In this document: positions 26,411 through 32,735 of the stretch, piece after piece
Layout: each line of letters starts with the position of its first letter
How positions within the stretch are numbered: the stretch's first letter is position 1
Origin: a virus
Virus record (IMG/VR): IMGVR_UViG_3300046018_000073
Coordinates: 1-39,045 of that record
Direction: 5' to 3' (one strand)
Length of the DNA stretch: 39,045 nt
Position numbers and translations under genes: made by a program
Notes under the pieces: generated by a model
Told to the model about the DNA's origin: nothing
Database searches by the model: none
What the model saw: only the letters and a program-made list of their open reading frames with translations

Positions 26411-26462
26411 ACTAGATGAACGTTTACGACGCAACGCAGGCAAGGCTGAAGACGATCTTTGA
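26199..26462 (+). CDS. Small partner protein upstream of IbrA-like gene
   Basis: 87 residues from TTG 26199, seven bases after AAGGAG; TTG 26193 is too near that site. Content: ILHYLQKWRRRGYPEIPDEA, PSYRAVCRAILSNDVALTSL, GYSRPRTPAYMALKRLEL. The 'RRGYPEIPDEAPP ... CRAILSND ... LGYSRP' pattern is one I recall from short genes that precede IbrA-type genes in phages and islands. It overlaps ibrA by 47 bases, so translation is coupled. Probably works with IbrA/IbrB; mechanism unknown. Confidence 0.68.
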   Translation: MRERILHYLQKWRRRGYPEIPDEAPPVLELLCKAPSYRAVCRAILSNDVALTSLGYSRPRTPAYMALKRLELDERLRRNAGKAEDDL

Positions 26463-27687
26463 AGAGTTCGACAACGTGTATGTGTCGTTCTCCGGGGGCA
26501 AGGACAGCGGGGTCATGCTCAGTATGACCGTGAACTATGCACGGAGTATCGGAAGGCGCATCGGTGTGTTCCACATCGACTACGAAGCGCAGTATCAGAT
26601 GACCACTGACTACGTTGATGCAGAACTGTCGAAGAACGCCGATGTGATCGACGTGTACCGCATCTGTTTACCGATAGCTGCCTCATGCGCGACCTCGATG
26701 TCGCAGGGCTACTGGATACCTTGGGACAAGGACAAGCGCGATCTGTGGGTGCGCGAATGGCCCGCTGACGGCATCACCGAAGACAACCATGAGTTCCCGT
26801 GGTTCATCAAGGGCATGCGCGACTATGACTTACAGGAGCGCTTCTCAGAGTGGCTGCACGTCAGGATGAGGGCAAAGAAAACAGCCTGCCTCGTGGGCAT
26901 CCGGACTCAGGAGTCACTGAACCGCTGGAGAGCCATTCACAGCGACAAGAACACAAACAAATTTGACGGGCACGCTTGGACGCTGGAGATGTTTCACGGC
27001 GTCTACAACTGCTATCCGATCTTCGATTGGACCGTCGAGGATGTGTGGACATGCAACGCCCGCATGGGGTTTGACTACAACCATCTGTACGACTTGTTCT
27101 ATCAAGCCGGCGTACCGCTAGGGCACATGCGCGTAGCAAGCCCCTTCCATGAGTGCGGCATCGAGAACCTGAAGCTATATAAAGTCATTGACCCAGTGAA
27201 TTGGGGAAAGATGGTTGGCAGAACAAATGGCGTCAACTTTGCTGGCCTGTATGGCGGAACGACTGCAATGGGATGGAAGTCGATCAAGTTGCCGCCTGGT
27301 CATACGTGGAAGTCCTACATGGAGTTCTTGCTATCAACACTTCCTGAAGATACGGCCGAGAACTACAAAAAAAAACTGAGTAAGAGCCAAGAGTTTTGGA
27401 AGAACAAAGGCGGAGTACTTTCAGATGATGTTGTGTCTAAGTTGCGCTCTGCTGGCGTTGAATTCTCGGTGGCTGATTCAACGAATTACAGCACAGAGAA
27501 GCGGCCAGTGACGATGGAATATCTGGACGACATCGACATCGAAGAGTTCCGAGAGATTCCAACTTACAAAAGGATGTGTGTATGCATCATGAAGAACGAC
27601 CACCTGTGCAAGTACATGGGGTTCTCGGCAACGAAGACGGAAACGCAGATCATCGCCGAGGCGCTGAGAAAGTACAAAGACCTATGA
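26416..27687 (+). CDS. ibrA: IbrA-like PAPS-reductase-family protein
   Basis: 423 residues. The PP-loop is VSFSGGKDSGVM (residues 23-34), which binds and pyrophosphorolyses ATP in this family. Further blocks are VGIRTQESLNRW, PIFDWTVEDVWTC, FYQAGVPLGHMRVASPFHEC and a C-terminal region with VCIMKNDHLCKYMGFS. This is the IbrA/DUF3440 branch of phosphoadenosine phosphosulfate reductase-like proteins, related to DndC rather than to metabolic CysH. It is more AT-rich than its neighbours and contains a run of nine A at 27366-27374. Followed with ATGA overlap by its usual partner ibrB. Confidence 0.88.
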   Translation: MNVYDATQARLKTIFEEFDNVYVSFSGGKDSGVMLSMTVNYARSIGRRIGVFHIDYEAQYQMTTDYVDAELSKNADVIDVYRICLPIAASCATSMSQGYWIPWDKDKRDLWVREWPADGITEDNHEFPWFIKGMRDYDLQERFSEWLHVRMRAKKTACLVGIRTQESLNRWRAIHSDKNTNKFDGHAWTLEMFHGVYNCYPIFDWTVEDVWTCNARMGFDYNHLYDLFYQAGVPLGHMRVASPFHECGIENLKLYKVIDPVNWGKMVGRTNGVNFAGLYGGTTAMGWKSIKLPPGHTWKSYMEFLLSTLPEDTAENYKKKLSKSQEFWKNKGGVLSDDVVSKLRSAGVEFSVADSTNYSTEKRPVTMEYLDDIDIEEFREIPTYKRMCVCIMKNDHLCKYMGFSATKTETQIIAEALRKYKDL

Positions 27688-31045: not shown

Positions 31046-31314
31046 GGCACGCAGCCCGCACCGACGCGAATCAATCCGAAATCGTGGAAGCCATGCGCAA
31101 GGCTGGCGCTTACGTGTGGCTCATCGGCCTGCCGGTGGACGCGCTTGTCGGCTGCAATGGTCGGACTGCGCTGCTCGAATTCAAAACCGCCACGGGGCGC
31201 AAGACGAAGCTACAGCGCACGTTCTTCGAGGACTGGACAGGCGGCACCTTAGCGCTTGTCAGCGATGTGGAAAGCGCGCTTAGGGTGGTGGCAATGCTTA
31301 AGGGGACAGCATGA
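31042..31314 (+). CDS. VRR-type PD-(D/E)xK nuclease
   Basis: 90 residues, GTG start with GTGA overlap. After a helix (NQSEIVEAMRKAGAYVW) comes LPVDALVGCNGRTALLEFKT with Asp33, Glu46 and Lys48 forming the PD-(D/E)xK site, then KLQRTFFEDWTGGTLALVSD. The size is right for the minimal VRR-NUC family of phages, which act as structure-specific nucleases (Holliday-junction or flap type) and often replace RusA at this position before the late genes. Confidence 0.78.
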   Translation: MRHAARTDANQSEIVEAMRKAGAYVWLIGLPVDALVGCNGRTALLEFKTATGRKTKLQRTFFEDWTGGTLALVSDVESALRVVAMLKGTA

Positions 31315-31691
31315 CCAACGACCTCGATGCAATCCTTGACGACATCCTGATGCGCTGGCACCAGTGGACACCACCGATCAGGTGCAGCCGAGGATTCAAC
31401 CGCCAGGCCACTGGAATGGAGCAGTACGTGACTTCGCGGCAGTACGACGACCAGAACGGCGCACTGGACGACGCAATCGAGCGTCAGACGATGGAAGCAG
31501 TCCAACGGGAAATCGAGCGCATGCTGATCCTGCATCAGATCGCGCTGAAGGTGAACGCTAGGGCTTTGACGCTGGGTGTGGTGGTGTTCAACCATCCGAG
31601 ACTGCCGCAGGACAGAGAGCAAAGGCAGTTAGTGATCCGCACGGCACGGGGTGACTTGACTTGCCGTCTATCGCGCGCAGGGATTCTGTAG
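31311..31691 (+). CDS. Last gene of rightward early operon, candidate late regulator
   Basis: 126 residues, ATGA overlap. Start DLDAILDDILMRWHQWTPPI, then an aromatic/polar segment EQYVTSRQYDDQNGALDDAI and a helix MEAVQREIERMLILHQIALK followed by NHPRLPQDREQRQLVIRTAR. The position between a junction-type nuclease and the late promoter is the position of the Q-type antiterminator in lambdoid phages, and the late leader (32759-32813) contains a terminator. I see no zinc motif or direct Q homology, so this is a positional proposal. Confidence 0.62.
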   Translation: MTNDLDAILDDILMRWHQWTPPIRCSRGFNRQATGMEQYVTSRQYDDQNGALDDAIERQTMEAVQREIERMLILHQIALKVNARALTLGVVVFNHPRLPQDREQRQLVIRTARGDLTCRLSRAGIL

Positions 31692-31955
31692 TAAGCTCGC
31701 GTTCATGGCGGCGCAGCGCTCAGTCATGCGCATGTCCTCTTGGATGCCGCCCAGGGGCTGCAGGAACGCCTCCCCGCACTCTCGACACCTGTAGCGCTGC
31801 ACGCGAGCCCTGATGAGGGTTGCGTGAACCCGGATGGGGTTGTCGCGGTAAATGGTGTCCTTGGTGCCGTGCTTGTAGAGACGGTCCAGCACGCCGCACT
31901 TCTGGCAGGCCGCAGGCTGGACGGTCCACCCTGGCAGGTCAAGAATGTCCGTCAC
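31668..31955 (-). CDS. ISL3-type transposase zinc-ribbon fragment
   Basis: 95 residues from GTG 31955, overlapping the upstream gene by 17 bases (the frame goes on to TTG 31967). TDILDLPGWTVQPAACQKCG, then HGTKDTIYRDNPIRVHATLI, RVQRYRCRECGEAFLQPLGG and EDMRMTERC. This is the zinc-binding N-terminal domain of ISL3-family transposases; the HTH and catalytic domains are missing and the frame ends in an unrelated tail. No inverted repeats of an insertion sequence were seen, so it may be a domesticated DNA-binding protein. Confidence 0.65.
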   Translation of the reverse strand: MTDILDLPGWTVQPAACQKCGVLDRLYKHGTKDTIYRDNPIRVHATLIRARVQRYRCRECGEAFLQPLGGIQEDMRMTERCAAMNASLLQNPCAR

Positions 31956-32112
31956 GGGCGGCGTCAATCAGCTTCTCAACCCAGGCCGGCCCGCCGTTGC
32001 GGTCCACCTTCGCGCGCTGAGCGGCCGTCAGGCGCAGCTCCATCCGCGCCGTTTTGCGGCTTTCGGGGGGCAGCGGAGGCCGCCCGAGTTTCTTGGGTTC
32101 GACCTGGTTCAT
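31939..32112 (-). CDS. Ribbon-helix-helix-type small regulator
   Basis: 57 residues, ATG sharing its A with the upstream stop (TGATG). Lys/Pro-rich N-terminus with KLGRPPLPPESRKTARMELR, then LTAAQRAKVDRNGGPAWVEK. The short strand (MELRL) followed by two helices is the ribbon-helix-helix layout of small phage and plasmid repressors. It is the likely autoregulator of the leftward cassette that starts at 32297. Confidence 0.68.
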   Translation of the reverse strand: MNQVEPKKLGRPPLPPESRKTARMELRLTAAQRAKVDRNGGPAWVEKLIDAARDGHS

Positions 32113-32297
32113 CACATCACCTGAAATTCTTCGCCTTCGAACTTGGCGGCGTGGGCCTCGACGTAAGCGTCGATGAATTCTTGGTCAGTGCAAGGAGCCA
32201 TCTTGCTGTGCAGGGCTTCGCGGATGTCGTCGTCCATCAGGTTCACAGCGGCGTCGAAGTCGATGGTCTTGCCGTTCAGGTTGACTTGCTTGCTCAT
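32112..32297 (-). CDS. Small acidic conserved protein, unknown function
   Basis: 61 residues with GGAGAGACGCC before the ATG. SKQVNLNGKTIDFDAAVNLM, DDDIREALHSKMAPCTDQEF, then a short acidic C-terminal helix. I recall very similar small proteins (NGK..DFDAAV.LMDDDIRE.LH...APC..QEF.DAY) from mobile elements and phages of distant phyla, none with a known role as far as I can tell. It is the first gene after a near-consensus promoter and is followed by a repressor-like gene, the arrangement of anti-defence (acr-aca-like) operons. Confidence 0.75.
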   Translation of the reverse strand: MSKQVNLNGKTIDFDAAVNLMDDDIREALHSKMAPCTDQEFIDAYVEAHAAKFEGEEFQVM

Positions 32298-32344
32298 GGC
32301 GTCTCTCCGGTTGGCTGGGCCGCACCGTGCTGCCCATGAACATT

Positions 32345-32373
32345 ACTGTACGGCAGGAATTGCAGCGTGTCAA
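32345..32373 (-). promoter_or_regulatory. Promoter of the leftward cassette
   Basis: Minus strand TTGACA (32368-32373), 17-base spacer, TACAGT (32345-32350). Perfect -35, ideal spacing, four of six -10 bases. It is one of the best promoters in the window and drives the acidic-protein gene at 32297. Confidence 0.7.
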
Positions 32374-32429
32374 GCACTTTCCACACGAAAATCCGTTTTT
32401 AGAGCAAAGTCAGCAATGAAGGAATCCAC

Positions 32430-32735
32430 ATGGAAATCCGGAGAGCCGAAATCTGGAAGGATCGGTTCCACGAGCGCGGAACGACCGGGGCGCACTTGTG
32501 TAGGGCCGGCGATGAAGGCGGTTACACGATTGGCAACGTCCGCGTTGACACAGCAGAGGCTAACCGCGCAGAGGCAACCGTATCAGGGCGAAGAAAATCG
32601 CTGAAAGCTGCATGGCCGAACGGTAGCCAAGCGTTTTGGCTTCACGAGCGCAGCGATTACGGGCGAGACTATTTCAGGGTGCGCGCAAAACTTGAGTGGG
32701 CGCAAGAAAATGGCATAGAGCTTGACGAATCCTGA
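32430..32735 (+). CDS. HNH-like or homing-associated small protein
   Basis: 101 residues with AAGGAATCCAC before the ATG. EIRRAEIWKDRFHERGTTGA, then GDEGGYTIGNVRVDTAEANR and HERSDYGRDYFRVRAKLEW. The 'GGYTIGNVRVDTAEAN' block resembles the part of HNH homing endonucleases that follows the metal-binding histidines, but the zinc cysteines and catalytic His-His are not present here. It may be a remnant or a DNA-binding derivative. The late -35 box overlaps its last codons. Confidence 0.58.
   Translation: MEIRRAEIWKDRFHERGTTGAHLCRAGDEGGYTIGNVRVDTAEANRAEATVSGRRKSLKAAWPNGSQAFWLHERSDYGRDYFRVRAKLEWAQENGIELDES

Follow-up and report, generated by a model that had tools for sequence, protein, structure and literature searches.

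Results

The leftward operon identified here in a virus genome is very probably a self-limiting anti-CRISPR cassette, in which a gene for the anti-CRISPR protein AcrIC5 is followed by one for a small RHH-type protein acting as an Aca, the two forming a module situated inside what is left of an ISL3-like transposase operon. The window, by which we mean the whole 39,045-base virus record analysed, encodes a major head protein, terminase subunits, an Erf-like annealing protein, a DnaD-like helicase loader and an exonuclease; named records that rank near the top for its large terminase include Xanthomonas phage PBR31 (68%) and environmental phages. The original prediction of three overlapping leftward genes running against their surroundings was borne out, with minus-strand ORFs at 32297–32112, 32115–31939 and 31967–31668 (together 31668–32373) and rightward genes on either side, at 31311–31691 and at 32430–32735, the latter followed by the small and large terminase subunits. 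The near-consensus promoter predicted for them was also found, TTGACA-17-TACAGT at 32373–32345 on the minus strand with 10 of 12 matches, as one of 2 promoter-like sites in 2.5 kb, compared with 0.5 (sd 0.7) in shuffles. Elsewhere in the window, positions 26416–27684 hold a phosphoadenosine phosphosulfate reductase-like phage gene (phrog_2302, 5.5e-104). The features of the cassette and its borders, with the evidence for each, are as follows.

32112–32297, minus strand: acrIC5 homologue, 61 aa, acidic (Pfam PF22147, PDB 7yhr match, identity to locus L002)
31939–32112 (to 32115 with a GTG start), minus strand: RHH-type regulator, candidate RHH-type Aca (family A4, RHH matches, AlphaFold model)
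31668–31955, minus strand: 5' fragment of an ISL3-like transposase-family gene, with zinc ribbon (sequence matches, DNA homology)
32345–32373, minus strand: promoter TTGACA-17-TACAGT (promoter scan; -35/-10 arrangement common to locus L222)
32342–32354, minus strand: putative RHH operator GCCGTACAGTAAT, overlapping the -10 box (likeness to the promoters of other phages)

32317–32335, minus strand: leader stem-loop upstream of the Shine-Dalgarno sequence GGAGAG (32308–32303) (pair counts in 15 leaders; a lead only)
32377–32448, minus strand: promoter/leader block homologous to ISL3-like phage operons, outside the inserted unit (blastn, homology boundaries)
31955–32376, minus strand: inserted or replaced unit of about 420 nt, comprising promoter, acrIC5 and RHH gene (DNA homology limits on both sides)

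The First Gene Encodes an AcrIC5 Family Member

The first protein had been described as small, acidic and of an uncharacterised type. Its size of 61 residues, pI of 4.3 and charge of -8.3 agree with the first two of these descriptions; the third was mistaken. By sequence, its membership in the AcrIC5 family is firm: it matches Pfam PF22147 (AcrIC5) over profile positions 1–53 of 53 (E 1.5e-25, 89.5 bits, cut-off 27), the one match to this family in the whole window, and PDB entry 7yhr (‘Anti-CRISPR protein Type I-C5') with E 1.5e-22 in phmmer and 1.1e-30 in a profile search. It is 72% identical to the proteins of L002 and L114 (Pseudomonas delhiensis), whose sequence equals that of 7yhr over the aligned part. 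The anti-defence role predicted for this gene was right in kind, the protein belonging to a known anti-CRISPR family, and from its relatives we infer that the window copy would inhibit CRISPR. According to PMC7913775, AcrIC5 was discovered via aca1, blocked CRISPRi in a delta-cas3 strain, inhibits the type I-C systems of P. aeruginosa and Eggerthella lenta, and is distributed among Proteobacteria, Firmicutes and Actinobacteria. PMC10478522 describes the protein as a monomeric Acr of small size and high acidity, one that binds the DNA site, and a Bifidobacterium homologue that inhibits I-C, and after which an RNA anti-CRISPR comes, is reported in PMC10651486.

Does the family name describe the function of all its bearers? 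Many AcrIC5-like proteins, the window's included, might inhibit another defence or do another job, with I-C inhibition confined to a few members. Such a reading would accommodate the very wide spread of the family, with relatives at 75 viral and 10 genome loci (near-duplicates among them) that include Microviridae, as well as the presence of cas8c in only 2 of the 9 searchable genomes carrying a relative. We consider it improbable nonetheless, given the 72% identity to a Pseudomonas sequence that also gives 7yhr, the activity of the Bifidobacterium homologue as reported in PMC10651486, and the consideration that the target of a prophage may lie outside its own carrier.

Among the relatives, two ssDNA Microviridae of about 5 kb from pig and human faeces contain unannotated AcrIC5-like ORFs of 61 and 66 aa (L242, 2492–2677, and L243, 2483–2683; MG945373 and KT264799), placed between VP2/VP4 or VP4/VP5; in L242, a 60-aa ORF overlaps the AcrIC5-like ORF by 4 nt. 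At several loci a DNA-binding-looking N-terminal part and an AcrIC5 domain share one open frame (L051/L052, L120, HTH-like by eye; L083, L085, L088, RHH-like by eye), in which internal starts are possible. The proteins judged RHH-like by eye beside or fused to AcrIC5 (L054, L055, L083, L085, L088, L242) gave no Pfam RHH match and were left out of the counts. Three loci, L042, L113 and L119, each carry two AcrIC5-like copies. An RNA anti-CRISPR (Racr) beside acrIC5, as in Bifidobacterium, was considered for the window and rejected: five two-mismatch matches to a motif that we take to be the type I-C repeat end occurred, none near the cassette and with 6.9 expected by chance, and Rfam at gathering scores returned no match in the search for an RNA anti-CRISPR.

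The Second Gene Probably Encodes an RHH Protein

The second ORF encodes 57 aa from ATG 32112 or 58 aa from GTG 32115, overlapping acrIC5 by 1 or 4 nt depending on the start, and its product follows the pattern GRPPLPPESRKTARMELRLT...AWVEKLID. It had been predicted to be an RHH DNA-binding autorepressor, and the RHH part of that prediction probably holds, as judged from the Pfam matches of its relatives and a profile alignment to the RHH protein of L044; the assignment is weaker for the window copy alone, which has no match in Pfam, PHROGs, NCBIfam or PADLOC. The 18 members of its family, A4, which includes the window protein, give weak Pfam matches to NikA-like (8 of 18, best 3e-4) and HicB (2 of 18, 4.7e-6) families and, once each, to RHH_7 and TacA1, and HTH families are absent among the six Pfam families matched. 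The hhalign alignment to the L044 protein, which sits behind AcrIC5 and is itself a Pfam-confirmed RHH (RHH_5, 2.9e-10), has 72% probability and E 3.4e-5 over 34 columns; the same comparison with a second RHH protein, that of L058, returned nothing. Two AlphaFold models (pLDDT 75.6 and 79.8) predict two helices after an extended segment, at residues 30–38 and 42–55 in the model of higher pLDDT. Foldseek with two RHH models found no match at E 0.001, VIA on the 4 Foldseek chains only gave a best Z of 2.4 to a plant TCP domain, and PDB sequence and profile searches with the window protein or its family yielded nothing significant. No RHH relative was found in named phages (queried with the window and L236 proteins) or in plasmids (queried with the L236 protein).

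Relatives of this protein occur directly behind different small genes in L205, L207, L208, L209 and L211, with a 4-nt overlap in each, and in L206, with an overlap of 4 or 16 nt by start. In one set of 14 loci, relatives in L210, L212, L213 and L214 stand in other contexts without a two-gene unit, and in another set of 14, L017–L023 have no such unit.

RHH Gene, Promoter and Leader Recur in Other Phage Operons

The promoter of L205 resembles that of the window, with GCCGTACATTAAT in place of GCCGTACAGTAAT, and in L206, a locus identified through its RHH protein, GCCGTACATTAT stands ahead of the leader. A second promoter class, CGTGT/CGTAT..TACA, in L208, L209 and L211, is more distantly like the window's, and the RHH strand residues differ there too. 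Within the window, GCCGTACAGTAAT is the sole match at up to 2 mismatches where 1.36 are expected by chance, so that the case for an operator rests on other phages.

IMG/VR was a source of further promoters through two patterns, each scanned in its unreversed form: TTGAC-N14-GCCGTACANTAAT, which gave 15 stretches, and CCGTACANA-N20-28-GCCGTACANTAA, which demanded a second operator copy and also gave 15. Together these make 23 different stretches, 15 of which (13 distinct operons) comprise a leader, one or two first genes (54–210 aa) and an RHH gene of the window type; the other eight, which have no leader with RHH gene, are L219, L223–L226 and L231, which look like one repeated sequence, and L221 and L234. 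A profile built from the protein-found members alone detected the RHH protein in 15 of 15 stretches with E at most 1.1e-4 (those of L222 and L228 being identical to a training sequence) and gave no match at E 0.1 in 165 other loci amounting to 1.09 Mb, near-duplicates included. With the wider A4 profile, a single background match fell below 0.01, the L044 RHH protein (E 0.0029), which itself follows AcrIC5.

The original prediction had suggested a search for operator repeats. Operator-like repeats accompany the RHH gene in the family, a second copy lying 34–38 bp upstream of the -10 copy in 14 of 18 operons, including 5 of the 6 operons found without the two-copy requirement; the window itself has the -10 copy, at chance level, and no upstream copy. 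The copies of L209 are separated by 47 bp, L230 has its upstream copy in inverted orientation, and no copy was found in L207. Among 398 bacterial genomes from a single phylum, none matched the operator pattern. Taken as a set of conserved sequences, these operons show that RHH gene, promoter and leader constitute a reusable expression module, carrying many different first genes in phages.

Cargo Genes and Association with Anti-CRISPR Families

What do these operons carry? A Pfam scan covered 20 cargo proteins of 18 operons, L220 and L230 contributing two each (the L206 cargo was left out). Two of them score above a family cut-off, and each is an anti-CRISPR, namely the window AcrIC5 and the first protein of L209, which matches PF25703 ‘AcrF31' with 75 bits, resembles the N-terminal part of AcrIE4-F7 (PDB 7vzm, E 3.5e-15) and is 58.8% identical to orf31 of D3112. 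Since AcrIE4 was identified in D3112 according to PMC8887544, we call the L209 protein AcrIE4-type. The remaining 18, from L207, L208, L211, L218, L220, L222, L229, L230, L232, L233 and L235–L240, reach no Pfam cut-off, for toxin families or otherwise. Apart from two pairs with a weak match (E 0.003), the cargo proteins are unrelated to one another; a pI below 6 is found in 14 of the 20.

The RHH family is thus associated with two unrelated acr families, AcrIC5 in the window and AcrIE4-type in L209, and such guilt by association is the customary basis for naming an Aca. An Aca-like assignment of the RHH protein is supported by its place in the same operon, by the two acr families and by the common promoter and operator. 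The operon layout of the anti-CRISPR/aca type that had been proposed is supported on the same grounds, with AcrIC5 as the first gene and the RHH gene adjacent. We file the protein as Aca-like of RHH type and not under Aca1–12 because its family matches RHH-type families and no HTH family.

Type II toxin-antitoxin systems have the same arrangement, a small gene and an RHH gene that overlap translationally. The window pair could be read in this way, as a small toxin with an RHH antitoxin, and some of the weak RHH matches are indeed to antitoxin families. We regard this as highly unlikely: the first gene encodes an acidic member of an anti-CRISPR family, the cargo of the relatives is mostly acidic and reaches no Pfam toxin cut-off, and the gene order is cargo first, RHH second.

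The Unit Lies within the Remains of an ISL3-Like Operon

The third ORF has 99 aa from TTG 31967, although homologues indicate GTG 31955, which is probably its start; as read from TTG, it overlaps the window RHH gene by 17 nt. It aligns with Zn_ribbon_ISL3 and with residues 1 to ~110 of ISL3 transposases. In 12 of 15 viral loci the ISL3-like homologues have 458–474 aa, those of L029, L030 and L036 having 129, 109 and 184 aa, whereas in the window copy 18 internal residues are gone (a 54-nt deletion) and nothing remains after about residue 83. By these alignments the third ORF is the truncated front of an ISL3-like transposase gene, a remnant. The gene had been predicted as a zinc-ribbon member of the cassette; the zinc ribbon stands, and is of the ISL3-like type, but a conserved third cassette member was rejected, the ORF being a transposase fragment with an internal deletion and a lost C-terminus, outside the inserted unit. 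The dN/dS of the zinc ribbon against L024 is 0.19, equal to that between L024 and L025 (0.19) and above the values of L025–L028 among themselves (0.03–0.07).

DNA homology places the borders of the unit. Positions 32448–32377 are 74–88% identical to the promoter block of the ISL3-like loci L024–L029 and to L240 (by blastn, 87.5% over 72 nt for L029), and this upstream homology stops at 32375–32378 in all 7 loci. With L024–L029 it restarts at 31954–31952, at the ISL3-like start, the homology of the fragment itself extending from 31954 to 31707. Given these limits on both sides, promoter, acrIC5 and RHH gene are one inserted or replaced unit of ~420 nt, and the alignments show this unit (~32376–31955) within the remains of an ISL3-like transposase operon. 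In L029, whose terminase is 65% identical, two other small ORFs take the place of the unit. A TerS-based search for an empty site gave, in the best 80 of 89 loci, no acr, RHH or zinc-ribbon match at E 1e-4, and little synteny. L239 was considered as the same locus as the window and rejected, because its neighbours, NinB/NinG-like in our reading, differ; what stands is its position on the strand opposite to the terminase, ~1.6 kb from TerL.

The proximity of the ISL3-like fragment bears on the role of the RHH protein. With a true AcrIC5, the RHH protein might still be a phage regulator of a general kind, or else have belonged originally with the ISL3-like gene, and have come to stand beside acrIC5 by the chance of insertion. 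In L215 and L217, a related RHH gene directly precedes a full ISL3-like gene with a 4-nt overlap (L216 has no listed ISL3-like frame), which keeps open a link between the two, as does the 17-nt overlap in the window; a general regulator would in turn suit the relatives that occur elsewhere, in L210 and L212–L214. Against this reading, the ORFs of L024–L029, the loci of the closest ISL3-like genes, include no RHH match at E 0.01 apart from a weak opposite-strand one in L026 (E 0.004), and DNA homology restarts only at the ISL3-like start codon. Another 13 distinct operons, with different cargo, also combine this promoter with the RHH gene. We therefore think it unlikely that the pairing with acrIC5 arose by such chance, and favour the RHH protein as an Aca.

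The ISL3-like loci have features of their own. Those of L024–L028 and L031–L035 encode phage-borne ISL3-like proteins of ~470 aa whose C-terminus seems, by eye, to have an additional part rich in cysteine. L024–L029 have a leader element in common, and the L029 protein has lost its middle, the zinc ribbon being joined to the C-terminus. An element CGGATTT..GTGTGGA is present in two copies 45 bp apart at 32380–32440 of the window and at 1545–1608 of L240.

A Possible Leader Hairpin

The leader stem-loop is a lead only. Counts were made on 15 leaders (L206, L207, L236 and L240 were left out), and the stem was chosen from the same sequences. In the named stem-loop, 78.1% of cells pair; the figure for shuffles is 59.4%, with 0 of 500 reaching the observed value, and slid controls stay at or below 49.5%. 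Cells changed on both sides number 18, where 7.2 are expected (0 of 500 shuffles as high), and six pairs include a two-sided change, a count reached in 24 of 500 shuffles. RNAalifold predicted no pairs on the leader alignment, and five single-sequence leader folds were mixed, with z of -2.35 for the window and -1.38 to 0.33 for the others.

Discussion

We propose the following model for the cassette. The promoter would give a short leftward mRNA, from which AcrIC5 is made; AcrIC5 would bind the type I-C Cascade and stop its binding to target DNA, as others have shown for relatives. A dimer of the RHH protein may then bind the operator GCCGTACAGTAAT over the -10 box, shutting the operon down once AcrIC5 has been made, which would be its role as an Aca. 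The present third ORF is the truncated zinc-ribbon end of the ISL3-like operon among whose remains the module lies. A broader proposal, to which we give an even chance, is that the RHH protein is a non-HTH Aca and that the operator CCGTACA (usually in two copies 34–38 bp apart, one over the -10 box) and the covarying leader hairpin mark a phage anti-defence regulon. Most of the 18 unassigned cargo proteins would then be previously unrecognised inhibitors of CRISPR or of another defence, with the hairpin perhaps contributing a layer of RNA-level control.

The novelty would lie in the RHH-type Aca and its operator and not in AcrIC5, and an earlier mention in the literature is possible. With published AcrIC5 (Leon et al. 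2021, PMC7913775; PDB 7yhr) the window protein shares a full-length match, size, acidity and an operon with a small DNA-binding partner; unlike the acrIC5 described in PMC7913775, which was found via the HTH gene aca1, its partner is RHH-type. All 12 Acas used by AcaFinder have an HTH domain and its search is by HTH models, Aca13 having been excluded for want of an HTH and of validation, as stated in PMC9765179. The HTH Aca1–Aca12 operons treated there resemble the present one in having a small DNA-binding gene beside acr, common to unrelated acr genes and presumed to be an autorepressor; the partner in the window differs from these twelve in being RHH-type. The anti-defence genes of archaeal viruses (PMC11065993) are similar in that different small genes share a conserved regulatory sequence, by which further such genes can be found, but their predicted regulator Aca8 is a wHTH protein and they are mostly single genes; several predicted archaeal anti-defence proteins have RHH or HTH domains, according to the same source. 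The third ORF shares the N-terminal zinc ribbon of ISL3-family transposases, from which it differs by its 18-residue internal deletion and the missing later parts.

Anti-CRISPR genes are hard to find because they have little sequence in common, and many came to light through a neighbouring gene for an HTH Aca. An Aca of RHH type whose operator can be searched for would be a new handle, linking two unrelated known anti-CRISPRs and pointing to a list of phage proteins that may be immune inhibitors. Searches limited to HTH partners, as that described in PMC9765179, would pass over RHH operons. Some of these operons are longer than two genes: in L222 (8274–8930) and L218 (1110–1757) a third gene after the RHH gene encodes a protein of 215–218 aa, endonuclease-like in L222 (phrog_16945, 2.7e-11) and alike by eye in L218.
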